Origin: Chrysochromulina tobinii
Lineage: Eukaryota; Haptophyta; Prymnesiales; Chrysochromulinaceae
Assembly: GCA_001275005.1 (NCBI GenBank)
Contig: JWZX01002935.1
Location: forward strand, 1 to 26,321
Reading direction: 5' to 3'
Length of the DNA: 26,321 nucleotides
Positions 1,011-23,791 of the stretch are shown in pieces. The position numbers were made by a program, and so were the translations under genes. Every line of letters starts with the position of its first letter. Position 1 is the first letter of the stretch. The notes below the pieces were generated by a model. The model saw only the letters and a list, made by a program, of their open reading frames with translations, made no database searches and was not told where the DNA came from.

Positions 1011-1026
1011 GCTCTGAACGGCGTGA

Positions 1027-1358
1027 GGGAGGAGGTTCCAGTCCTGCGCCTTCATTGTGCTGCAGTACGGGCCTTCTTGCTTGCGTTTTGATCATCTCGA
1101 CGAGTGTGACGCGGTGCCGACCGGCCTCGAGCTCCTTGGTCGAGCAGGCGCCTATGCTCCCCTCTTTCTCTTCCCCAATCCCCCTCTCTCTTTCGTTTTC
1201 TTCGATCTCTATCTGTACTCTGAGGGCACGCAGGCTAGCACCCTGTGGCGTGTCTCCTCCTGGTCTCCTTCCCGTTCGTGTTCCTTCCGTTGTGTCTCAC
1301 CATCTCCGACGACTCTCACCCCCACTGCTAGCTTAGAGAGCACATTCGATAGGCTTCC
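1027..1358. repeat. Tandem duplication, copy 1 (332 bp)
   Basis: This is the left copy of a direct tandem repeat starting gggaggaggttcca and ending with cattcgataggcttcc. It contains a pyrimidine-rich tract of about 60 bp in the middle. No RNA gene or conserved protein is recognisable in it. Confidence 0.95.
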
Positions 1359-1704
1359 GGGAGGAGGTTCCAGTCCTGCGCCTTCATTGTGCTGCAGTAC
1401 GGGCCTTCTTGCTTGCGTTTTGATCATCTCGACGAGTGTGACGCGGTGACGACCGGCCTCAAGCTCCTTGGTCGAGCAGGCGCCTATGCTCCCCTCTTTC
1501 TCTTCCCCAATCCCCCTCTCTCTTTCGTTTTCTTCGATCTCTATCTGTACTCTGAGGGCACGCAGGCTAGCACCCTGTGGCGTGTCTCCTCCTCGCTCCT
1601 GGTCTCCTTCCCGTTCGTGTTCCTTCCGTTACCCGTTGTGTCTCACCATCTCCGACGACTCTCACCCCCACTGCTAGCTTAGAGAGCACATTCGATAGGC
1701 TTCC
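1359..1704. repeat. Tandem duplication, copy 2 (346 bp)
   Basis: This is the right copy, directly abutting copy 1. By eye it differs by two substitutions (1117/1449 and 1129/1461) and two 7-bp insertions, near 1592-1600 and 1630-1637. Each insertion duplicates adjacent sequence. Short plus-strand frames in both copies encode similar peptides, but both substitutions change the amino acid, so selection on a protein is not evident. Together the copies fill 1011-1705, which otherwise has no gene. Confidence 0.95.
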
Positions 1705-2462: not shown

Positions 2463-2900
2463 TCAGAGGTAATGTACAGGAGTGAGTGAAGAGACCTCGG
2501 GAAGAAGACGGGCCTCGGGCTTGTTGGATGGCGGTAGGGCGGCGGCGGCGCGGCGCGAAGGCGGTGGAGAACGGCGAAGGAGGCGGGGGCGAAGGCGGCG
2601 GCGGGGGAAGGCGGCGGCGGCGGCGAACAAGGTCCTCGCTCCAAGATTGACATCGTAGTTGCCCATGTTGAGCATTTCCTTGCCTGTCTGGTTTTGCGGC
2701 AGAACAACCAGATCAAGCTTGAGATCAAGCTTAAGATCAAGCGTAGTTGCCCGCGTTGAGCACTCCCGGAGCTTTGGGTCAAACCTCCTCCACTTGTTGC
2801 CCTGAGCATCCTCCCCGTCCCACTCCCAGACGTAGCCATACAGCCCCAAGTGGCGGACCGACTTGTTCCGATACATCTGCTGATTCTGAGGGGCGGGCAT
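2463..2900 (-). CDS. WWE-domain-like small protein
   Basis: The ATG at 2900 gives 145 residues. Residues 9-45 contain YVWEWDGE (W25, W27) followed by NKWRRFDPKLRE (W37). This is the W-x-W...W arrangement of WWE domains, which bind ADP-ribose-type ligands or proteins in ubiquitin and PARP pathways. The expected later strand (MLNMGNYDVNL, residues 76-86) is separated from the first part by an insert of repeated LDLK units. The C-terminal third is Ala/Pro/Arg-rich, comes from a GGC-repeat tract, and may be untranslated. It begins 94 bp after the stop of the GT25-galectin gene and lies in a different frame from that gene's last exon. Recognition rests on a short motif, so confidence is moderate. 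Confidence 0.5.
   Translation of the reverse strand: MPAPQNQQMYRNKSVRHLGLYGYVWEWDGEDAQGNKWRRFDPKLRECSTRATTLDLKLDLKLDLVVLPQNQTGKEMLNMGNYDVNLGARTLFAAAAAFPRRRLRPRLLRRSPPPSRRAAAALPPSNKPEARLLPEVSSLTPVHYL
2526..2640. repeat. GGCGGC-rich low-complexity tract
   Basis: Imperfect GGC/GAAGGC repeats on the plus strand, read on the minus strand as the Ala/Pro/Arg-rich tail of the WWE ORF. Confidence 0.8.
2654..2762 (-). repeat. Duplicated 21-mer flanking a GATCAAGCTT-type 12-bp repeat
   Basis: A 21-mer starting cgtagttgccc occurs at 2654-2674 and again at 2742-2762 with two mismatches. Between the copies, 2711-2742 is built from 12-bp units, gatcaagcttga and gatcaagcttaa, plus a partial third. The arrangement interrupts the WWE-like domain. 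Confidence 0.85.
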
Positions 2901-2994
2901 GCTGCGACTTTGCGAGGTTTTCGAGGTTGGCCGGGTTTCGGATTCTGCCGCGGCTGCCCAAGGTTTCAACAGCTCGTAAACAGCTCGCTCTCCT

Positions 2995-5900
2995 TCAGCG
3001 TCCGGTCTGCGACGGGGAAGGCATCCGCAACAGATCGAGAATGAGCTCCGGCGGAAGCGTTGCGCAGCAGCTGTAGCAGTCGAGCTCGCCCCAGCAGAGC
3101 AAGTAGCCACCGGCGACCTCCACGAGGCTCTTCGCGACCTGGATGCGCATGTGCAGTTGCGACTGCACGCACGATGGCAGCGTGAACGGCAGCGAGACGC
3201 GCACGACCGCAAAGGGTGGCTTGGCTTCAAACAGATAGAGCAGATTGGCGTAGTTGCGTGTCTCCTTCTTACCCACCCACGAGCCGGTGCGCAAGCGGAC
3301 GAGCGTGAGGTAGTGGCCGCTGTCGAAGCGCAGGGGCGGCGTGCCACCATGCAGCTCGACGCCTGCGGCGAAGCCGTGAGGGGTGACGTGTAGCTGAGTG
3401 CACGTGCCGGAGGCAGGAAAGATCTCGACGACCATGTGGGGAGAAAACCAGCGGACAGCGAGTAGGCGCCCCTCGTGCTCGAACGGCATCCAATTCTTCT
3501 CCTGTGTGTGCGCATCGAGATATGGAAGACAGGGAAGGGTTCAGCAAGGGGCGGTAATGGAGCACATGGTGAGGAGGAGGAGGATGGGCTTGAGTAGGGC
3601 AGAGTCGTGGTGATGGACCGGCTCGTCATTTGATGCGCGCGCACCCAATATTTGAAATCCACGTTGTCGCAGACGAGCGCTGTGCCATTCGACGGATGGC
3701 GCACATCGAAAAGGAAGGGACGGCGTGCCTGGTTGGCTCGGCGCGCCGAAGATTCCCGCGACTTGATCTCGATGAGCGACGCGACGGCAAGCAGTTGGTT
3801 TTGATACCTGGCGATGGCGAGGCGACCAGCGGAGGACCACAAATGTGAGAGCTTCTTTTGTGGCCAAGCGCCTCGAAGGGCATGGCAAAGCATCACAGCA
3901 GCAGGAGGGCAGTGCAGTTCATGCGGGACTCGAGCGGAGTCGAGCGAGAGGGCACACGGGCCGCACCGGAGCAGCACGAGATCCTCAGTTGCAAGCTCTG
4001 GCACGAGCCCAAGCCTGCTCAATGCCCCGTCGATGGCCACACGCGTCAGGTCGCTCACTCGCAGCTCAGAAGGAGCGCCTTCGCCTGCTGGTGCTGCCTG
4101 GAGGGTGCAGGTGCCGAGCCACCACGCGCCGTATAGGTTCTCCATCAGGTGGTCTGTCGCCTCGCGCGTGAGCACGAGCGGGTTCCCACAGTAAGAGTAG
4201 GTAGACTCTCGAAGGACGCAAGGCATCGTCGCATGGGAGATGCTACGCGTCGCTGAAGAGCGTGTTGTCGCAGGCCCCGAGGGCGACTGATCAGGCGCAA
4301 CCATGGCCACATTGTACCATCGGGTGGGCGCTTCCCGCAGCCGCAGGTTGAGGTCCCAGCTGTCTGCCTCGTGGATCTCGCACGCCGAGATGGCTGTGGT
4401 CAGGAGGAGCCCCTGCAGCCTGCACAGCCCTTGGCCGTCACTGGTGGCCGTCGCCGGTTCGAGTGATGCCTTCACGAAGGCGAAGCCGGTACACGTGTTG
4501 GCTGCCGCCAAGCACGCGTCGCGGCACTCGCTCCAGCTTCGACCGAGACTCTGTTCTATCGGCTCAAGCAACGAGCTTCCCTCGGCGGTTTCGTTGGCAA
4601 TGGCGTCCCCGCCATCAGCTCTGCGTCGTCGAATGGCCTCGTTGGCACAAGCGGACGCCTGGAATGTGCGCCACCTTGTGCGGCCAAAGGCGATAACGGC
4701 GTGCTCGATCACACTCCCCATAATGGAGATCTGGTTGACCAGCCGCGAAGGGGCCCCCGCATGCACGCCACCAGCGCTGCCTACTTCAACAGTGGCGACC
4801 GTCTCGCCACCCACGACAATGGTCATGCGCGTCGATGCCCGCGTGAAGTTGAGTGCAAAGAGCTCGCCCAGCCGGAAGGGAAACGCGCGGGCTGTGCCAG
4901 CGCCATGCACGGGATGCTCACCGCCCCACTTGCCATCGGTGTTGGTGCTGATCCACGTGCGCTTGCGCTTCCATCCGATGTAGAAGGCGAGGTGGGCTTC
5001 ACGCCCCCTGTCCTCGTCCCCCTCGGGCAAGCTCGAGAAGACAACCTTCGTGGGCACATTCGACAGATGTGTGCGCTTCCCCCTGATACTCAGCGCGTCG
5101 CCGGCACCAAAGCCGACTGCCTCCCTGAACGGCTTGCGAATGACACGTGTACTCTCCGGCAGTGCAAGGGTCTGCGCGGACACAGGCATCGTGGGCTGTA
5201 GAATGAACGGGCGCCGCAGCTTGACGAGGTCGCAGTCGGAGGCTCGCCTGGAGTGCAGCCCTTGGATCATGACGCAGTGCGGCGGCGATCTGACCCGCCT
5301 GTCGACACGGTAGCCAATGCACGAAGGCAGCGAGGCGCACTGCGTCGCACAATCTGTGGGGGTTACCGTCGCGCCCAAGTCCTTGGCGCTAAAGTCCTTG
5401 GCGCTAAAGCCCTCGACGCCAAGATCCTCGGCCACCGCAAGCTGCTCCTGCATGTGCGCGACGACGCTGGGATCGAGCACGACCTCATTGGCGCAGCGCA
5501 CCTTGGGGTAACGGATGAAGCGAGGCTGCTGCAGAGGTTGCGATTCACTCGAACCTAGGGCTGGAAGCAGCAGGGGCTGTGAGGCCACGCCCAGCTGCAA
5601 TGCCTTGCGCCATTCAAGCACTCGGCTAGAGGCAGGCGCCGCCGAGTGCGATGTGCCTCCGAGGGGTCTATCAGCCACCGTTTGGCCATGATCGCCGCCG
5701 CTGCCGCTGCTGGTCGACATGTGGGCAGTGCACGGGGCGCTGATCCGCGGGGGGGCGATTGCAGTCGTAGCCGTCCACGTCCGTCGGCCCGCAGGGTAGC
5801 ACGTGTGCTTCAAACTGCTGCTCCTGCGGGCTGTGTGTGAACGTGCATGATCGGTCGACAGGGACGCAGATGCCGCGGATCCCGCGGCAGCCTCTGCACA

Positions 5901-8180
5901 AGCTTGCCACGCGAAGAAGAGCTTTGTGGGGCTAGGGAGTACAACCGCCGCGCTAAAGTCCACGGCGTCCAAGGTGGAGGGTACATGGGCGCTCGCTCGG
6001 CGGGAGATCGGGTACGCTGACCCCTCTTTGTTGGTAGAAGTAGTAGCAGCAGTAGCGCTCGTGCTGGTCGAGCTTGTCGTGGCAGACCACGAGCCGGCGG
6101 CTGAAGCCATGCTGCCGTTGCCCCACGGCTGCGCCTCCAAGAACACGCCCTCGCAGTAGAGCTCAACGCCAGCTGCCGTGAGCCGCAACGTGAGCCGGCC
6201 CGATCCGCCTCGCACCAGAGGCAAGCGTGACCAACCCGGCTCGGCATACTTGCTCACGTACGCATCCCTAGAGCCCGGCTCCGAGGGCCTCCCATTTGTC
6301 ATGGCTGACGTCGCGTCGACCGATGTGGTCGCATTGGAGGCCATCTTGCGTTTCGCCCGGGTCGCGGCGGTACCACCGTCCGCTGCGTCTCCGTCGCTAT
6401 GCGAGGCGGAGGATAAAGAGGGGCTGTGTGCCAGGTGGAGCCGCTTGCGATGACCCTTCTTGCTGCGTGGACGACCTTTCGCGTGCGTGGTTTTCGCCGA
6501 CAGGATCGGCTGCTGCTCCTCCAGCTCTCGAGGAGCGCTCCCGCTGGTCTGTTTGGCGGCTTGGCTGCTGCCACCCTCGCCGCCGCCACTGCTGCTGCCG
6601 GTACCTCTATCCGTCCTCCCGCTACTGCTGCTGCTGCTGCCATCTATCTTGTTCGTCAAGCGGTAGGTCGGGTAGCCGACGCTAGCAGTGGCGTCGATGT
6701 GGACGGTGAGGCGGAATTGCAAGCGGCCCCAGCGGCGCAGGTGGACACTGAATTCAAAGCCGTCGAGCCACGTCACGAGGAGGTGGACTTGGAGTGGGGC
6801 GCCCCGCGTGCGATAGACACCTCGAACGTCCAAGTGCGAGCAGTAGAGGTGAGACCACTCGGTATACGAAGGCGGGCGCACGCGCTGCGCAGGAGGATCC
6901 ATGGCATTCTTGAGGTGCGCAGGCTTCGAGCTGGCTCGTGTGCCGTCCAGTGCCTGGGCCGCCTTCTTCGCTTCGACAGCCCACTCGCGAGCGAGCGTCT
7001 CACTCACTTCGTGCGCTCGGTCGTTCTCGGCTGCGGCGTTCTGTGCCGCCAGACGCGTCGCGGAGTGGTGCACAATCGTTGATGCCGAGTTGGCGCAGCT
7101 CAGCAGCGGCGGCGTCGCGAGGAAAGAGGGCGATGCCAGCGAGTAAATGAGATGCACCTACAATGTGTGGGGGCGACGAAGCATGCATGTGCTCAGCCTC
7201 GCATGCGCACGAGAGTCATGTGAGTACTCTGTGTGAGCACTCTCGAGCACACGTGGCTTACATCCGCTTGGATTTCGTCCATCTCGATAGGGAACGCGAG
7301 GGTGCCGACTGGGCGACGGGCGCGCATTGCTGACGAGCCGCCCACCGACCCTGCAAGCCGGCTTGCGCCAAGTGGGGTCGCATGCACGGTGAAGGCCTCA
7401 AGAATCTGGGTGGGTAGATAGCGATCTCGTAGCGATCTCGTTAGAAGTAGCAGTGGAGAGAGCAGCAAGGAGCTGCTGTCGTGCGCAGGGACGGTGATTG
7501 TGACGCCACGGAGGTGTGCGTATACACGAGCCGCCGCGCACCTGCCGCATCCCACGAACATGCATTAGGTACGCGCCAGTTCCAAAGTGGCTGCGACGGT
7601 CATGAGGAATCGTCCAGCGAGACCTATCCACTCGCCATGCTGACATGAGGCCCATCCACTCACGCTTCTGCGCGACAAGCTGGAGCTGCACGACGGCCCA
7701 GTTCTCTGGCAGCGACGCGGCGAGCTCGGTGATCGACACGGTCCAGTGCGGTAGGAGCTCCGCGCTCACATCATCCTCCATGACGACCGCCATCTCGCAT
7801 CCAGTTGCCGTGCAGTAATCTTCCGCACGGCGAATGGCGAGCACGTGGGAGAGGGTGCATCCCATCTCAGACATTGTATTGCGCTTCAGCAGATGTTGAA
7901 GCTGCTTGCCTGTATGGGTGAATTCATTGGCGCTTGCATTGCCGTCAACCGCAGGCACGAGCTCAACGTGCCTTCCAGCTGCTTCGAAAGAGGCCTGCAT
8001 GGCGCGGCTTCGTGCTCGCCCCGTGGCTGTGCGGTTCAGCGAGAGGAAAAACACTGGCACACCATCGAAGAAGGAATGGTCGTTCATGCTAGCCACTACA
8101 AATAGGGTGTGGAGCATGACAGACAAAAGACCTGCGCGTGCGTTCATAGCACACTCGAGCCGAGCATTCCGGCGCCGCAT
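2995..8180 (-). CDS. GT25 glycosyltransferase / PAN-galectin-PAN / GH130-like beta-propeller fusion, four exons
   Basis: Predicted exons are 8180-7542, 7405-7262, 7157-3645 and 3501-2995, all joined at phase-0 GT-AG introns, for about 1600 residues. Residues 1-35 hold a hydrophobic signal peptide or type II anchor; ATG 8147 is an alternative start. GT25 (about 40-300) shows FFLSLNRTATGRARSR, SEMGCTLSHVLAIRRAED and acidic VVMEDD, and its C-terminal part (ATPPLLSCANSASTI) continues across intron 2. A Ser/Thr-rich lectin-like region follows. A Cys-rich PAN/apple-like module is at about 813-909. A galectin domain is at about 938-1088, with the W-G-x-E signature near residue 1004 and FPFRLGE. A second PAN-like module is at about 1098-1201. 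The C-terminal 360 residues resemble the five-bladed propeller of GH130/mannosyltransferase-type proteins (EKNWMPF, GGTPPLRF, YLFEAKPPFAVVRVSLPF). The likely role is lumenal glycan synthesis with sugar recognition. Domain calls are by eye; acceptor sugar and linkage are unknown. Confidence 0.8.
3502..3644 (-). other. Intron 3 of the GT25-galectin gene (143 bp)
   Basis: Donor TATTGG|GTGCGC and acceptor CACACAG|GAGAAG. Splicing joins DNVDFKYW to EKNWMPFEHEG in phase 0. The E-K-N-W-x-P-F motif, expected in GH130-like propellers, is created only by this join. Confidence 0.85.
7158..7261 (-). other. Intron 2 of the GT25-galectin gene (104 bp)
   Basis: Donor GCGGAT|GTAAGC and acceptor TTGTAG|GTGCAT. 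The join is phase 0 and gives EMDEIQAD-VHLIYSLA, restoring the C-terminal part of the GT25 domain. Without it the second half of the gene would have to start at a GTG codon. Confidence 0.8.
7406..7541 (-). other. Intron 1 of the GT25-galectin gene (136 bp)
   Basis: Donor CGGCAG|GTGCGC and acceptor CCACCCAG|ATTCTT. The phase-0 join gives YLMHVRGMRQ-ILEAFTVHATPLG, continuous with GT25-type sequence. Two near-identical cgagatcgct units lie just before the acceptor. Confidence 0.85.
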
Positions 8181-8390: not shown

Positions 8391-10001
8391 TCAGGAGCGA
8401 AGCCACCAGAGGGCGCCCCATGCGGCCGTCACTGCCGGCACCACAGCGTGCCGCATCAGCGGTCCAATCACAAAGGACAAGCAGCATCCTATGCTCAGAC
8501 GGTAGCCCTTGCCACCCAACGCCTCCACGAGTGCCACGGGCAGTTTGGGTGGTGGCCAGAGGGAATAGTTGAGGTTGTGGCCGGTGATCAGCGCGGCGCT
8601 CGTGAGGAGCAGCCCGCTGTGTAAGAACATGAAGGCGACGTACACCGTCAGGCTGAGCGCCGGCTGGCCTGGGGAGCGAAGGCTAGAGCCGGGCACACGC
8701 CCGAGTCGGCGGATGCACACCGGGGTGGCGAGCAGGAGGAGGTGGAAGCCCCAAAAGATGGCCACAGAGGCGCGGGCGGCCAAAGGCCAGCCGGCAGCTA
8801 TGAGAGCCTTGGCGGAGTCGAGGTCCGGGAAGACGAGCGCGAGCAGCGGCATCCAGCTGCAGAACTGAAGCAGCTCGCCGAGTAACGGGCGCGCCGTATC
8901 GGGCGCGCCGAGAAGCGTGAAGGCGCTGAGCAGTGTGTACACGTGGCAAGGCAGGAGGGTGAGCTCAAGGACGGAGCGTGTGAGGGAGAAGCCCTGCACG
9001 AGCTTGACGCCCGCATTGAGCGGCCAGCACAGCGCAATGGCGGTCCCTAGCGCGGCCTCTGCTCGCGTCCGATCGAGGCCAGCTGCGCTACCGGAGCGGG
9101 GTGCAAGAGCCCCTTGAACGGGTGTCCCTTGAGCCCCGTGCATTACCCAGCAGAGCACGAGGGCGACTGTCAAGACGCCCAGGTGGACGGCGAGCTCGAA
9201 GATGTGCTGCTCAGCTGCATGGTACCAAAAGCGGGGCTGCTCGCGCGCGTACGGCTCGCACCATGTACGCAGGAGCTGCGCGCTCTCCCGCTGCCTCGTC
9301 TCGTTTGGAGGGAGGAAGCCGAGAGAGCCGATGAGCAGCGCGTTGAGCGTCATGCCGAGCAGCACTGGGCCGCACAGCACGAGCTGCACCGTCGAGCATG
9401 CGGTCAGTGTCGGGAGCAGACCCTCCACACGCCCTCGCAGCTGCGTGGACGAGCCGCTATTGTCGATGATATGCGTCGCCCTTGCGGCCTTTTCCACTAG
9501 TGTCAGAGGCTGCGCTGCGATGCGCGCGCGTGCCGCGTCCTCGCCAGCGCCGTCGCGAGCCATGAGGCGGCGGAGCTGCGTGTCCGCGTCGACGGACACC
9601 ACGACGCGCATCGAGCAGATGCGGTGCAGCCCAGTCTCAAAGAGTAGTGGTGCGTCCAGCACGACAACTCTCGTGCCTATCATCACGTGATGTGCGAGCG
9701 CATACAAGAGGCGGATGGCAATGGCAGGCTGAACAATAGAATTGAGCTTCCGACGATGAGTTTCCAAGGTAAAGACGATTTCTCCAAGGCGCTTCCGGTC
9801 GATGTGTTTGCCATCCGTGCCCAGAATTGTGGGTCCGAATGCATGAAGGACGCGCGAATAGACCGAGGCTCGAGCCCCTGGCCGCAAGATGTCATGCGCG
9901 ATGGCGTCGGCATCGATGAGGGGGATGCCATTTTCGACCAGGAAACTCGAGACGGTCGACTTGCCTGCGGCGATGCCTCCGGTTAGGCCCACGATCTTCA
10001 T
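8391..10001 (-). CDS. Dephospho-CoA kinase fused to a TMEM164-like membrane domain
   Basis: ATG 10001 gives 536 residues. Residues 1-205 are a complete dephospho-CoA kinase (CoaE), which makes CoA from dephospho-CoA and ATP, the last step of CoA synthesis. It has P-loop GGIAAGKST at 8-16, then DADAIAHDILRPG, the LDAPLLFE segment, a DADTQLRRLMARDG lid region and a closing HIIDNSG. The frame runs without interruption into about 330 hydrophobic residues with several membrane helices. The motifs LLPCHVYTLL and GHNLNYSLWPPP, with a following YR, are like those of TMEM164, an ER acyltransferase acting in ether-lipid remodelling for which a catalytic Cys and His are reported. An in-frame ATG at 10091 would add a 30-residue basic, hydrophobic leader that could target an organelle. 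The kinase is certain; the TMEM164 assignment is from memory of the motifs. Confidence 0.88.
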   Translation of the reverse strand: MKIVGLTGGIAAGKSTVSSFLVENGIPLIDADAIAHDILRPGARASVYSRVLHAFGPTILGTDGKHIDRKRLGEIVFTLETHRRKLNSIVQPAIAIRLLYALAHHVMIGTRVVVLDAPLLFETGLHRICSMRVVVSVDADTQLRRLMARDGAGEDAARARIAAQPLTLVEKAARATHIIDNSGSSTQLRGRVEGLLPTLTACSTVQLVLCGPVLLGMTLNALLIGSLGFLPPNETRQRESAQLLRTWCEPYAREQPRFWYHAAEQHIFELAVHLGVLTVALVLCWVMHGAQGTPVQGALAPRSGSAAGLDRTRAEAALGTAIALCWPLNAGVKLVQGFSLTRSVLELTLLPCHVYTLLSAFTLLGAPDTARPLLGELLQFCSWMPLLALVFPDLDSAKALIAAGWPLAARASVAIFWGFHLLLLATPVCIRRLGRVPGSSLRSPGQPALSLTVYVAFMFLHSGLLLTSAALITGHNLNYSLWPPPKLPVALVEALGGKGYRLSIGCCLSFVIGPLMRHAVVPAVTAAWGALWWLRS

Positions 10002-10020
10002 GTCTGTGACTGCGCTATTC

Positions 10021-10053
10021 CTCGTGAATGTGTAAGTGTGAATGTGAATGAAG
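10021..10053 (-). repeat. TTCACA-type repeat just upstream of the CoaE start
   Basis: On the minus strand this reads as imperfect TTCACA/TTCACT units. The 14-mer TTCACATTCACACT (10035-10048) recurs on the plus strand at 14480-14493. It lies within 55 bp of ATG 10001, so it is either 5' UTR or, if translation starts at 10091, codes FIHIHTYTF. Confidence 0.7.
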
Positions 10054-10094
10054 AGGCGTGGAAAGATAACGCCAACGAAACGCGTCCGCAAACC

Positions 10095-18870: not shown

Positions 18871-19061
18871 AAAAGACACCGGGGGGAGTTTCTCGTAGAT
18901 AAACAGAATGAAATTGAGCATTAACGGAACCGGATGAGGAATCGTAAAATCTGAGTACACGATCCCACCGGTGTGCACCTAGCAATTCGTGGCAACAAAA
19001 AACTCGTCACTTCTGGCATAGCTTCACATGCATGCGCACTTGCGCAGTGGTGTTCAGAATG

Positions 19062-19069
19062 TACCGGTA
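19062..19069. promoter_or_regulatory. TACCGGTA palindrome (GH7 side)
   Basis: Perfect 8-bp palindrome with 69 nt between it and the ATG at 19139. Confidence 0.5.
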
Positions 19070-19138
19070 AAAGCGTCCTCTCATCAAACTTTTTTTTGCT
19101 TCCCCTCTGGTGTGTGTCTCCATCACGCGCAGCAAGCG

Positions 19139-21273
19139 ATGCTTTGCGAGTCCTGGTGCGCGACCTGGGCCTGCGACGGCTCCGCATGGTGCAAATCGGG
19201 CGCTGTGCCCGATAAGTGCCTCGGATGTCACGCTGCTGCTACAGCGGCACCCGCGCCCACGTGCGAGAGCTGGTGTGCGACTTGGACGTGTGACAGCGAG
19301 TGGTGTGCTGGAGGAGAAAAACCCAAGGCGTGTCAAAGCTGCGACAGCACCGCTGCACAGACGCGCGAGAGCACAGCAGGTGCTCAAGCGCCTGCTCGTT
19401 TGCACGAGAGCAAAGGTGCTCGGGGCCCCGTCATCGATGTAGATGCCCCAGCCGTGGCTGACGGCAAGACAGGCGGCGCAGGTGGCGTGGTGGACGCCTG
19501 GCATTTGCCATCCTGGCCGATGCCGATTGCGAGCTGCTCGGACCCTCAGCGCATGAGCTGCCACGTCGCGCCCGGAAGCTGGATTGGCGAGGCGTGGACC
19601 CAAACGAAGGCAACGCCAAGGGGCCCTGGGCCAACACGTGCCATCGATCAAAAGCGTGGGATCGCCATTACGGGGTCGACTCGGATGTTCTACTCCTCGC
19701 TGGTGCCGTCGCCAGAGCAGGCGGCCAAGATGCAGTGGTCCGACGTCGCCTACGAGAAGCTGGCGCCCCTCGACAAGAGCCTCTCATTCACGATTGACAT
19801 GAGCGCGGTGCCGTGTGGCTGTAATGCGGCCCTTTATCTCGTCCAGATGGACATGCCCAGCGGCGACGACGGGAGCGGCTACTGCGATATTCAGGGCTTT
19901 GACGACCCGAGCATGAAGGCATGCACGGAGTTGGACGTCATCGAGGGCAACCAGAAGGCGCTGCAGTCGACCCTGCACACGACACCGGGCAAGGGAGAGG
20001 ACGGGCGGTGCAATCAAGATGGCTGTGCTGCGAATTGGGGAAGGCACGAAGAGACGAACCCGGCCTACGGCCTGCCAAACACCAAGGGGGTGCCTTCGCA
20101 TACGATCGACTCGTCCAAGCCGCTGCATGTCACCGCCACCTTCACAAGCAAGCGCATCAATTGGTACGACGATGCGGGGTGCGCATTCGAGGTCGAAGTG
20201 GCACAGGGCGATAGACGGGTGAAGCTCCTCGACAGCACGCGAGATGGCAACGGCGTCGACCGCACGCCTCGACCCTTTGCGAGTGCCGACCTGCAGCGCA
20301 CCTACGAGGCCGTCACAAACGGCCTTGTGCTCGTCGCGTCGCTTTGGACTACCGATGACCTCTCGTGGCTCGACGGCGGCTGCGACGCCGAGTATCCCAA
20401 GTGCGTCCTCAACGAGACGACCGTGGCCATCACAAACCTATCGATCGCGCCACTCTTTACCACCTCTTCGTTGGCGCCGCCGCCCCAATGGCCCCTCCCG
20501 CCGCCGCCCTCGCCCGCGCCCGCCACGCCACCACAGTCCGAGTTCGTGCCCATGCCACGACCGCCGCCCCCTCCGTACACCGACCCTGCGCCCGCTCCCC
20601 TTAAGGCATCGCCGTCACCGTCGCCCGCCGTCGACAACCGGACAAGCATGGGCATCAGCGCACTCTTCGTGGTGGCTGCAGTTGCTATCTTCTTCTGTTG
20701 TTTGGGCGGCTTTGGCGGCAGGCGCAAGGCAGCGGGAGCAACGCCGCGCCCACGAGCATCAAAGACAGGTCAAAGGCGGGCTTTGCACGGGTTGCGAGCA
20801 TGGAGGAGACTGATGAGAATGATGGCGAGGAAGAGGAAGACGCGTCTTTACACTCTCGCACTCCTGGCTGTGCACGGAGGTCGTCCTCCGCGGGGGTCGA
20901 GGCGGCGGAGGTCGAGGCGCCGGAGGTCGAGGTGGAGGAGGCAGAGGCGGCTGAGGACGAGCCAGAGGCGCCCAGGGTTGAGAAGGCACGTGCAGACGCT
21001 GAGCACCGTGTCAAGGCCGAAGCCGAATCTCGCGCGCGTGCAGCCTTGGCAGCACGGGAGGCCGCTCGGCAGGCGGCAGCGGTGGAGGCGGAGTCAAGGG
21101 CCAAGAATGCGCGCGCCAGGGAAGAACGAGCGCGCGCCAAGGAGGAACATGAGAGGCGGCTTGCCGAGGCGCGGGCGCTCGCCAAGGCAAACAAGGCTGC
21201 CAAGGAGGGGAGCGGTGTTGAGAGGCACGAGGAGGAGCAGGTGCTGACCTTCTCGGCGAGCAGCAGACGGTAG
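19139..21273 (+). CDS. Membrane-anchored GH7-like glycoside hydrolase with Cys-rich modules (one-base frame shift near 20735)
   Basis: From ATG 19139 the protein would be about 711 residues if one base is restored near the GGG at 20734-20736. Two Cys/Trp modules (CESWCATWACDGSAWC...C and CESWCATWTCDSEWC...C, residues 3-70) come first, perhaps for carbohydrate or protein binding. The catalytic region resembles GH7 cellobiohydrolases and endoglucanases: VPCGCNAALYLVQM, GSGYCDIQG, then CTELDVIEGN with E264, D266 and E269 in the E-x-D-x-x-E arrangement of nucleophile, helper and acid/base. A Pro-rich stalk leads to a membrane helix at about 504-525 (GISALFVVAAVAIFFCC) and an acidic, then Glu/Ala/Arg-rich coiled-coil tail in the shifted frame. 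The likely substrate is a beta-1,4-glucan at the cell surface or in a vacuole. No ordinary signal peptide is visible, so a 5' exon may be missing. Confidence 0.72.
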
Positions 21274-21475: not shown

Positions 21476-23593
21476 CTAAAAGATGAAATGACGCGCTCGC
21501 GCTGCAAAGCCGTTCGGCCTTTGTCGCGAACCGGGGGTTTGAGCACAATCATCCGACGAGGGTCGAGTGAGCACAGTCGGCTTCTTTCGAGTGCGTGTGC
21601 CTCTCGCAAACACCAGTCCAACCAGGGCCGTCATCGTGAGCGCACTCATCAAGCAGAAGGCTGCACCGAAGTGCAACTCCTCACGCGCCGAAGGCTCAGC
21701 CACGTGGCGAGGGTTGTCGCGCGTCGAGCTGAGCGCCGCTGATGACCTCTGATTGCGGGCGGCCACGTGGCGAGGGCCAACTCGATCAGTCTTCTCGGCA
21801 AGCACGCTCCGGCTCTCGCCGGGACGGCGGGTGCGAAATGTGCTCGGCAGCTCGGCGGGCGGCAGTGCCGCCGCGATGATGCCGAGCTGAGCCAGTTCCA
21901 CTCGGTGAGAGGCACTCCCACTTCTCGTTGTCGTAGGTCTCCTCCCACCGATCGTGGTCTGGGGCTCTCCGGCCACCCACAGCCCCCGCAGCTCCCCGAA
22001 ACGCCGACTGGTGAGACGCTGCAGCCGCGTGCTCCACGCGACCGACGCAATCTCGACGCCGTCGAGATGGAGGGAGAGATGTCGCTGCCCTGCGGCAGAT
22101 GCGACGACGCTGTAGTGATGCCAGCCGTTCGAGCCCACGTTCACATGCGGCGCGCGCAGAACCACACTCCCCTCCCCCACGAGCAGACGCCGACCAGCCT
22201 TCCACGTGACCATCGGCAGGATTCGCCGCGGCCCTTCGGCCATTTCGCCGGCCATTTCGTTGGCCGATTCGGGCTCCGCGGATGCACTCAGCACGGCGCC
22301 ATCGACGAAGCTGAGCGACCAAAAGGAGACGCGCTGCCCACGACGGCGCTCCGTCGAGTGCACGCACGCCCACCACGAGACGACAAATTCGCCGCCCGTT
22401 AGAGCGTCCACGGGCAGCGGCACGAAGGCCTCGAGATTGCCGTCGAGGGAGAGATGGTGGTCGCCTTGCTCCTCTGCCCACCAGCACGTCAAACCGGCTG
22501 CATCGGTGATGCCGTTTCTGCCCGTACACGCGCCGCTGTAGATCCAGCCGTGGTTGCACTGGCCCGAAAGGTCAAGCAACAGCCGCTCGGATCCCACAGG
22601 TGCTCGGCGCAGCGGCCAGTGGCCTACGATGGGTGGCGTGTGACGAAACTTGGGACGATGGGCAGGCGACCCGGCAACGGAGGACGAGCCTGCAGAGAGG
22701 AGAATGTCCTCACATGAGCAATTGCTGCCGATGCCCATCGAGGGTAGCGGCGCGAGCGGGAAGGGCGCGAAGGCTGCCTGGAGCACGCAGTTGAGCGTCG
22801 CGGGCACGCTCGTCACGTACTCGGGCGACCAGTGCTCAAGCACGTACGAGCGAGAGAGGGAGGAGTACAGGTGGATGGCAAACCCACTCAGACCCGCTGG
22901 ATGGCCGAGCGCAGCCTGCTGCAGGTGGCGGAGCGGATCGGAACGCTCGAGCAGCAGCATACGCAGATTGTCCGCGTCCCAGTCGGGCCAAAAGAACGCG
23001 TCGTACGGGAGCAGGCGCACCTCGTCGGGATGAGCGGCCGCGAGCTCTGCGGGCCTCTGCACGGAATGCGAACTCCATCCATCGCCGTCGCCGCGGCCAA
23101 ACGAGTGGTATTCGCGGAGCCAACGCCGAGCAAAGGAGGCGTTCGGCCGGGCGAGCAAGACGGCATTGCACAGGCCATGCGCGCCGCCATGCGCGTCGTC
23201 GCCCTCCTGGCCGATGACAAAAGGCGCACTCGACCTCCTCGGGCTGAGCAGCCCCGCCAACGGACGCAGCACGATCACGTCCAGATCGAGATAAATGCCA
23301 CCATGCTCGATAAGCAATTGCAGCCGGAGCACGTCGCTGCGATGAGCGGCAGTTCGCAGCGATCGTCCAAAGATCGTCGTGGCAAGCTCGACCCTGTGCA
23401 ACTCCACCAGTGGACGCGCATGCTGCCACCAAGTGCCGTTCGGCTCATGATGATAATGGAAGAGCAGCCGACATTGTGCGTGATGCTTGTGCGCTGCTCG
23501 GATGGCTAAGTAGTGCACGAACGCGAACGCGTCGGGGTCGTCAGCGAGGCCGAAGATGAAGTGGAATGGGACGGCAAGACCGGCGTCGGTCAT
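21476..23593 (-). CDS. GT32-type glycosyltransferase with LamG-like lectin domain and C-terminal membrane helix
   Basis: ATG 23593 gives 705 residues. Residues 8-130 match the DXD sugar-transferase fold of GT32 (Och1/MIPC-type enzymes that transfer hexoses from nucleotide sugars). VPFHFIFGLADDPDAFAFV is followed by RSDVLRLQLLIEHGGIYLDL with DLD at 103-105, which binds the metal and nucleotide sugar. Acceptor-side motifs run to about residue 290. Residues 345-535 look like a laminin-G/concanavalin-A-type jelly roll (NGWHHYSVVASAAGQRHLSL, HLDGVEIASV). A hydrophobic helix near 643-660 (CLMSALTMTALVGLVFA) precedes a basic tail, so the anchor is at the C terminus, unlike typical type II Golgi transferases. 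The frame is open upstream to 23683 but has no ATG there. Confidence 0.8.
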   Translation of the reverse strand: MTDAGLAVPFHFIFGLADDPDAFAFVHYLAIRAAHKHHAQCRLLFHYHHEPNGTWWQHARPLVELHRVELATTIFGRSLRTAAHRSDVLRLQLLIEHGGIYLDLDVIVLRPLAGLLSPRRSSAPFVIGQEGDDAHGGAHGLCNAVLLARPNASFARRWLREYHSFGRGDGDGWSSHSVQRPAELAAAHPDEVRLLPYDAFFWPDWDADNLRMLLLERSDPLRHLQQAALGHPAGLSGFAIHLYSSLSRSYVLEHWSPEYVTSVPATLNCVLQAAFAPFPLAPLPSMGIGSNCSCEDILLSAGSSSVAGSPAHRPKFRHTPPIVGHWPLRRAPVGSERLLLDLSGQCNHGWIYSGACTGRNGITDAAGLTCWWAEEQGDHHLSLDGNLEAFVPLPVDALTGGEFVVSWWACVHSTERRRGQRVSFWSLSFVDGAVLSASAEPESANEMAGEMAEGPRRILPMVTWKAGRRLLVGEGSVVLRAPHVNVGSNGWHHYSVVASAAGQRHLSLHLDGVEIASVAWSTRLQRLTSRRFGELRGLWVAGEPQTTIGGRRPTTTRSGSASHRVELAQLGIIAAALPPAELPSTFRTRRPGESRSVLAEKTDRVGPRHVAARNQRSSAALSSTRDNPRHVAEPSAREELHFGAAFCLMSALTMTALVGLVFARGTRTRKKPTVLTRPSSDDCAQTPGSRQRPNGFAARARHFIF

Positions 23594-23791
23594 CGGCGCC
23601 GCGCGCTGTTTTGGGCACAAAGTAGGCGTGGGAGCACCCACCCTGAGCAAAGCAGAAACTTCAAGTTCTCCAGCACCAAGCAACCGGAAGGAAGACTGTC
23701 ACGAGCCTCTGGCTCAGTTGCGCCAATCCTCGAGCTAGACTAACGAATACCGTTCAACGGAAACACCCTATACACCGGGGCTAGCCGGGAC

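Follow-up and report, generated by a model that had tools for sequence, protein, structure and literature searches.

A five-exon haptophyte gene encoding a predicted GT25 glycosyltransferase joined to galectin-like and PAN-like modules and a GH130-like propeller

Three apparently separate reading frames between positions 2995 and 8180 of the window (the whole 26,321-nucleotide stretch of DNA analysed here) form a single reverse-strand gene for a protein with an N-terminal GT25 domain, a galectin-like/PAN-like/galectin-like/PAN-like block and a C-terminal GH130-like propeller. The gene structure, the domain order and the alignment of that complete order to two further proteins are established at the sequence level. 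The reading we favor, with a probability of roughly 0.6, is a glycosyltransferase of the secretory pathway, about 1540 residues long, whose lectin modules would hold the acceptor and whose propeller would act on or read the same glycan.

Exon 1 (7542..8147) starts at the ATG at 8147 and encodes a weakly hydrophobic N-terminus and the beginning of the GT25 domain, including its EDDV motif. It is followed by exon 2 (7262..7405), the GT25 middle; exon 3 (3967..7157), running from the GT25 end through the whole galectin-PAN block to the propeller start; exon 4 (3645..3807), within the propeller; and exon 5 (2995..3501), from EKNWMPF through the stop codon. All four introns have GT-AG ends. Intron 1 (7406..7541, 136 nt), intron 2 (7158..7261, 104 nt) and intron 3 in the original numbering (3502..3644, 143 nt, between exons 4 and 5) are in phase 0, and intron 4 (3808..3966, 159 nt, between exons 3 and 4) is in phase 2, in frame and stop-free. 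The original prediction had proposed one gene with the three phase-0 introns, and both that unity and those introns hold: the exons are open and relatives run through all the joins. It missed the phase-2 intron, which brings the length from about 1600 to 1536 residues. Joining across the phase-0 introns only (8147-7542, 7405-7262, 7157-3645 and 3501-2995) leaves all segments open and gives 1589 residues, including 53 residues between LVLLR and YQNQLL that are absent from the relatives P0002, P0003 and P0004. Because the insert is missing from these proteins and has GT-AG ends, is in frame and lacks stops, we assign it as the fourth intron; 3966-3808 is the only GT-AG pair (>40 nt) within 4000-3780 that restores the LVLLRYQ-type reading of the relatives. 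Translation could alternatively start at an in-frame ATG further upstream, at 8180, which would give 1547 residues. The open frame spanning 2463-7157 is coding only as far as 3645, exon 5 using another frame; an open frame of 1171 codons has a chance of about 5e-14 from base composition alone. No second copy of the gene was found, and an Rfam search of the window gave nothing above gathering scores. The genome comprises 53 Mb in 2253 contigs, of which the window is one (C1776).

At sequence level, the proof of the joins is carried by relatives and not by Pfam. Four relatives (P0001-P0004) were obtained by protein search from 7,995 scored candidates: P0001 (1386 residues, beginning at exon 3 and identical to the target at 1274 of 1286 exon residues), P0002 (1631 residues, 57% identity in alignment A1), P0003 (1638 residues, 50%) and P0004 (973 residues, 59%, without the N-terminal part). 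P0002 and P0003 are single proteins, unbroken through every join. Among all spanning relatives, joins 1 and 2 are each gap-free in seven of eight; the exception is P0036 both times, diverging past join 1 and having two gaps adjoining join 2. The intron 4 join lacks an insert in eight of nine, the exception P0001 retaining the intron, and the intron 3 join is gap-free in seven of nine, the exceptions being P0028, a distant propeller with gaps, and P0001, which reads through the intron. These relatives are not fully independent, since P0008 and P0029 overlap and seem to come from a single species. Each splice join had also been expected to restore a family motif. For GT25 the match did lengthen, from profile positions 5-97 of 199 with exon 1 alone to 5-189 with the exons joined, but the score did not rise (32.8 to 30.8 bits).

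That two neighbouring genes, one for GT25 and one for a lectin-propeller protein, were wrongly joined is very improbable, and we reject it. The frames do lie apart in the DNA, and the near-identical P0001 starts at exon 3. Its start, however, is exactly the first codon of exon 3, a GTG rendered as M, and introns 3 and 4 are read through, so that P0001 evidently comes from a non-splicing gene caller; P0002 and P0003 are continuous across all the joins. Intron 3 is 141 nt in P0001 and 143 nt here, a length change that is out of frame. The introns 3 and 4 kept in frame in P0001 may alternatively reflect a retained-intron isoform.

The GT25 domain occupies 7038..8063 (approximately residues 29-290 in exons 1-3, introns 1 and 2 lying within the span, the end placed by conservation). 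As originally predicted, the N-terminal part matches GT25 (PF01755), scoring above the Pfam cut-off of 24 bits in the 1589-residue join, and it has a transferase fold in the model of a relative, the fold predictions having been made on the relatives P0031 and P0004. That model adopts a GT-A fold matching COLGALT1 (residues 336-553) and beta-1,4-galactosyltransferases (8xkd). Segments of the EDDV, HFGTGAY and DE.QADVHL types remain conserved across P0002, P0003 and the majority of the partial relatives. The second DXD of COLGALT1 (D461-D463), reported as essential (PMC3244457), is not kept in an alignment read by eye.

Galectin-like domain 1 (5892..6863, approximately residues 349-672) is split by a low-complexity insert; its boundaries were transferred from the P0031 alignment, and its fold match is modest and seen in the P0031 model only. 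It is followed by PAN-like module a (5211..5522, approximately residues 796-899), galectin-like domain 2 (4677..5177, approximately residues 911-1077), which keeps WGGE, and PAN-like module b (4332..4676, approximately residues 1078-1192), each under its Pfam cut-off. Galectin (PF00337) scored 16.3 bits in the target and 21.4 bits in P0002 against a cut-off of 22.1, and no Pfam galectin match was listed for P0003 or P0004; we therefore use the term galectin-like only. Likewise, PAN_4 (20.5 of 27 bits), PAN_1 (17.3 of 21.4) and PAN_2 (14.7 of 21.1), with PF00024, PF14295 and PF08276 as the profiles tested, stay under their cut-offs and the modules are called PAN-like. The PAN-galectin-PAN block proposed originally thus stands as to both module types, at this sub-threshold level, but had overlooked one of the two galectin-like folds. 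A text pattern for galectin-like domain 2 matched P0004 only and was left out of use.

The C-terminal GH130-like propeller (2998..4331, approximately residues 1193-1536 in exons 3-5, with introns 3 and 4 within the span) has its first strand, APTRWYNVAM, at residue 1193, ahead of a disordered insert. Its assignment, also made originally, is supported by the predicted five-bladed fold of a relative, which matches GH130 and GT108, and by linking viral relatives that match GH130 (PF04041) at 44 and 36.5 bits; PF04041 had no Pfam match in the target and none genome-wide at E ≤ 1. PDB sequence searches with A2, P0002, L019 and A5 returned no GT25 or GH130 chain. The query A7 found such chains, and EDPR was seen in the GH130 chains in low-scoring stretches (-3.4 to 6.3 bits). 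All five family rows examined have EDLV in place of EDPR and RxR in place of HxK, in contrast to ED.R in 18/18 and HxK in 17/17 of the other rows with letters there; all five retain the Asp of EDPR, the KNW loop and GGTPP. This uniformity suggests a changed function and not random change. Since PR of EDPR and HxK are lost while the other elements are kept, we think a glycan-binding or altered-activity domain more likely than an ordinary mannoside phosphorylase.

Identity to the relatives is highest in the GT25 domain (61-69%) and the propeller (69-75%) and lower in galectin-like domain 2 (46-54%), PAN-b (43-52%), PAN-a (32-57%) and the linker with galectin-like domain 1 (36-43%), a pattern that fits two constrained heads joined by a more variable lectin chain. 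In the glycosyltransferase reading, a short N-terminal hydrophobic segment, albeit a weak one, would bring the protein into the ER/Golgi, and the GT25 domain, with its GT-A fold and EDDV, would add a hexose to a glycan or glycoprotein, the most probable reaction being galactose transfer from UDP-galactose. On the model of other lectin-bearing transferases, the duplicated galectin-PAN modules may keep the acceptor glycan close to the site of transfer, and the propeller would act on or read the same glycan.

The protein could instead be a lectin-like adhesin, secreted or at the surface, whose two enzyme folds have both lost activity and serve only to bind sugar. Its four lectin-type modules, the altered propeller motifs and the loss of the second DXD would fit such a protein, but the conserved GT25 segments and the higher identity of both enzyme folds than of the lectin-type blocks (32-57%) fit constraint on the two folds, and we judge it quite unlikely. 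A two-enzyme synthase, in which GT25 elongates a glycan while the propeller adds mannosides or phosphorolyses them in the manner of GT108/GH130, so that a mixed glycan is built and trimmed, draws on the matching propeller fold, the retained Asp, KNW and GGTPP, the recurrence of transferase-propeller fusions and the dual transferase-phosphorylase nature of GT108 enzymes (PMC8950772). Against it stand EDLV and RxR in every family row examined, and we consider it unlikely. A related version is similarly doubtful: a GT-A galactosyltransferase paired with a re-tooled GH130/GT108-type propeller transferring or removing a second sugar, with the galectin-PAN modules holding the chain between the two sites. 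Such a protein would form part of a wider class in which different algal and viral glycosyltransferases are each fused to the same KNWxPF propeller, a class unreported among the literature matches listed. The processive or self-targeting glycan synthase proposed at the outset finds no support here, and the propeller motifs are altered in all five family rows examined.

The pairing of transferase and propeller recurs in the same genome, with GT4, and in viral contigs. Within that genome, L017, a single 1259-residue open frame, combines a propeller (BLAST E 8e-8) with PAN_4, matched in two stretches at 42.5 bits, and with a GT4-type domain at 47.7 bits; L018 has a propeller without Pfam matches, and L016 a propeller and a long N-terminal part with a CBM-type match of 16.1 bits (cut-off 27). 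Of 101 viral stretches that matched a pattern, 42 contain the wider propeller, with several near-duplicates among them; 25 of the 42 loci were translated, 13 had stop-to-stop frames >500 residues and 10 of these 13 were scanned. L034 matches Pfam GT2 (41.8 bits, cut-off 23.3), L052 a PHROG glycosyltransferase (64.5 bits; Pfam GT2 21.2, under the cut-off) and L030 a PHROG galactosyl transferase (40.6 bits). No transferase profile matched L037 (Pfam and PHROGs) or L036 (PHROGs only), and L044 (both libraries), L040, L043 and L047 (PHROGs only) match a PHROG of unknown function. On an IMG/VR contig, L053 joins a GT25-like part and then a GH130-like propeller in one 786-residue frame. Its Pfam scores are weak and below cut-off (GT25 16.8 of 24, GH130 13.6 of 26 bits); hhalign gave E 0.0006 and 30% probability against the algal GT25, and E 1e-5 and 82% against the propellers. 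Since it is flanked by frames matching terminase and portal, it seems to be a GT25-like and propeller protein of a tailed phage. No close relatives of P0007 or L053 were confirmed among 50,697 phage records, and in bacterial and archaeal species genomes 0 of 62 and 598 matches to narrow patterns were confirmed as relatives of the viral transferase-propeller proteins. A viral origin of the gene is unsupported, the search of viral contigs for a close relative of P0002 giving one pattern match and none confirmed.

Like human COLGALT1 and the bacterial-type beta-1,4-galactosyltransferases (8xkd), the protein has PF01755, the GT-A fold and EDDV; it differs from COLGALT1 in lacking a first GT domain and D461-D463, and from GT25 galactosyltransferases generally in its long lectin and propeller extension. 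With GH130 mannoside phosphorylases and the GT108 Leishmania mannosyltransferase-phosphorylases it has in common the five-bladed propeller and the Asp of EDPR, but it has EDLV for EDPR, escapes Pfam detection and is fused to GT25 and lectin-type modules. GH130 and GT108 have a common fold and, in some cases, substrates (PMC8950772). Plant GT31 Hyp-O-galactosyltransferases (GALT2, GALT5 and relatives) combine, within a single chain, an N-terminal membrane segment with a galectin domain and a transferase, as transferase and galectin-type domain are combined here; they belong to GT31 and not GT25, their galectin domain is N-terminal of the transferase, and PAN and propeller are not mentioned in the accessible part of the source (PMC4431829). 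L017 likewise has propeller, PAN modules and a glycosyltransferase in one chain, but with the propeller first, GT4 last and no galectin match at E 0.05; L053 has a GT25-like part and GH130-like propeller but no lectin match. GT84-GH94 cyclic glucan synthases are a fusion of transferase and phosphorylase. The original claim that no described protein has this order agrees with the open-access literature, where none of the matches listed describes this order or any fusion of a glycosyltransferase to a GH130-like propeller; its novelty is tempered by the precedents for GT-propeller and GT31-galectin proteins. The protein is thus a modular lectin-bearing transferase, new in its combination and already known in kind.

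Haptophytes carry glycan-rich scales over their cells and release large amounts of polysaccharide, and to our knowledge few haptophyte transferases are known. The gene adds a conserved candidate transferase whose proposed division of labour can be tested, and connects this candidate with an as yet unnamed KNWxPF propeller family whose members, in algae and on viral contigs, are repeatedly fused to transferases; were the propeller active, a two-site glycan synthase would be added to eukaryotes. The genome itself is that of a photosynthetic organism, as indicated by 58 chlorophyll-binding-protein matches.

A sister architecture to the gene under study, with the modules in reversed order, is present in the same genome at locus L017. 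It is a single open frame of 1259 amino acids on the minus strand of contig C629 (708-4484), in which a GT4-type transferase and a pair of PAN_4 modules accompany a propeller of the KNW type, reading RNW where the type motif has KNW. GT25 domains also occur elsewhere in this genome, in frame with ankyrin repeats at L005 (1-2082) and with a Rubisco-LSMT-type segment, a match below the cut-off, at L007 (121-2376).

Propeller fusions were also observed in viral contigs. In the IMG/VR contig of locus L053, a frame at 3189-5546 joins a GH130-like propeller to a weakly GT25-like part and is flanked by frames with terminase and portal matches. The viral loci L044, L047, L040, and L043 carry frames of 585-645 amino acids in which an N-terminal part precedes the propeller; this part matches PHROG 1903, a family of unknown function, and by eye looks like a GT8-type transferase.

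In the window itself, a 740-residue open frame on the minus strand (21479-23698) matches Gly_transf_sug with 39 bits, and its long C-terminal part resembles a LamG-type lectin on visual inspection; this frame is perhaps another transferase-lectin fusion. On the plus strand, the frame at 19022-21244 has a GH7 match (40.5 bits) followed by a stretch that appears proline-rich by eye.

Within window 1020-1704 lies a duplication, absent from the Tandem Repeats Finder output, comprising 242-nt copies at 1020 and 1352 (98% identical) and 72-nt copies at 1287 and 1633 (100% identical). The minus-strand frame at 8394-10094 encodes a dephospho-CoA kinase (159 bits) and continues without a frame change into a long C-terminal half, which looks hydrophobic by eye.
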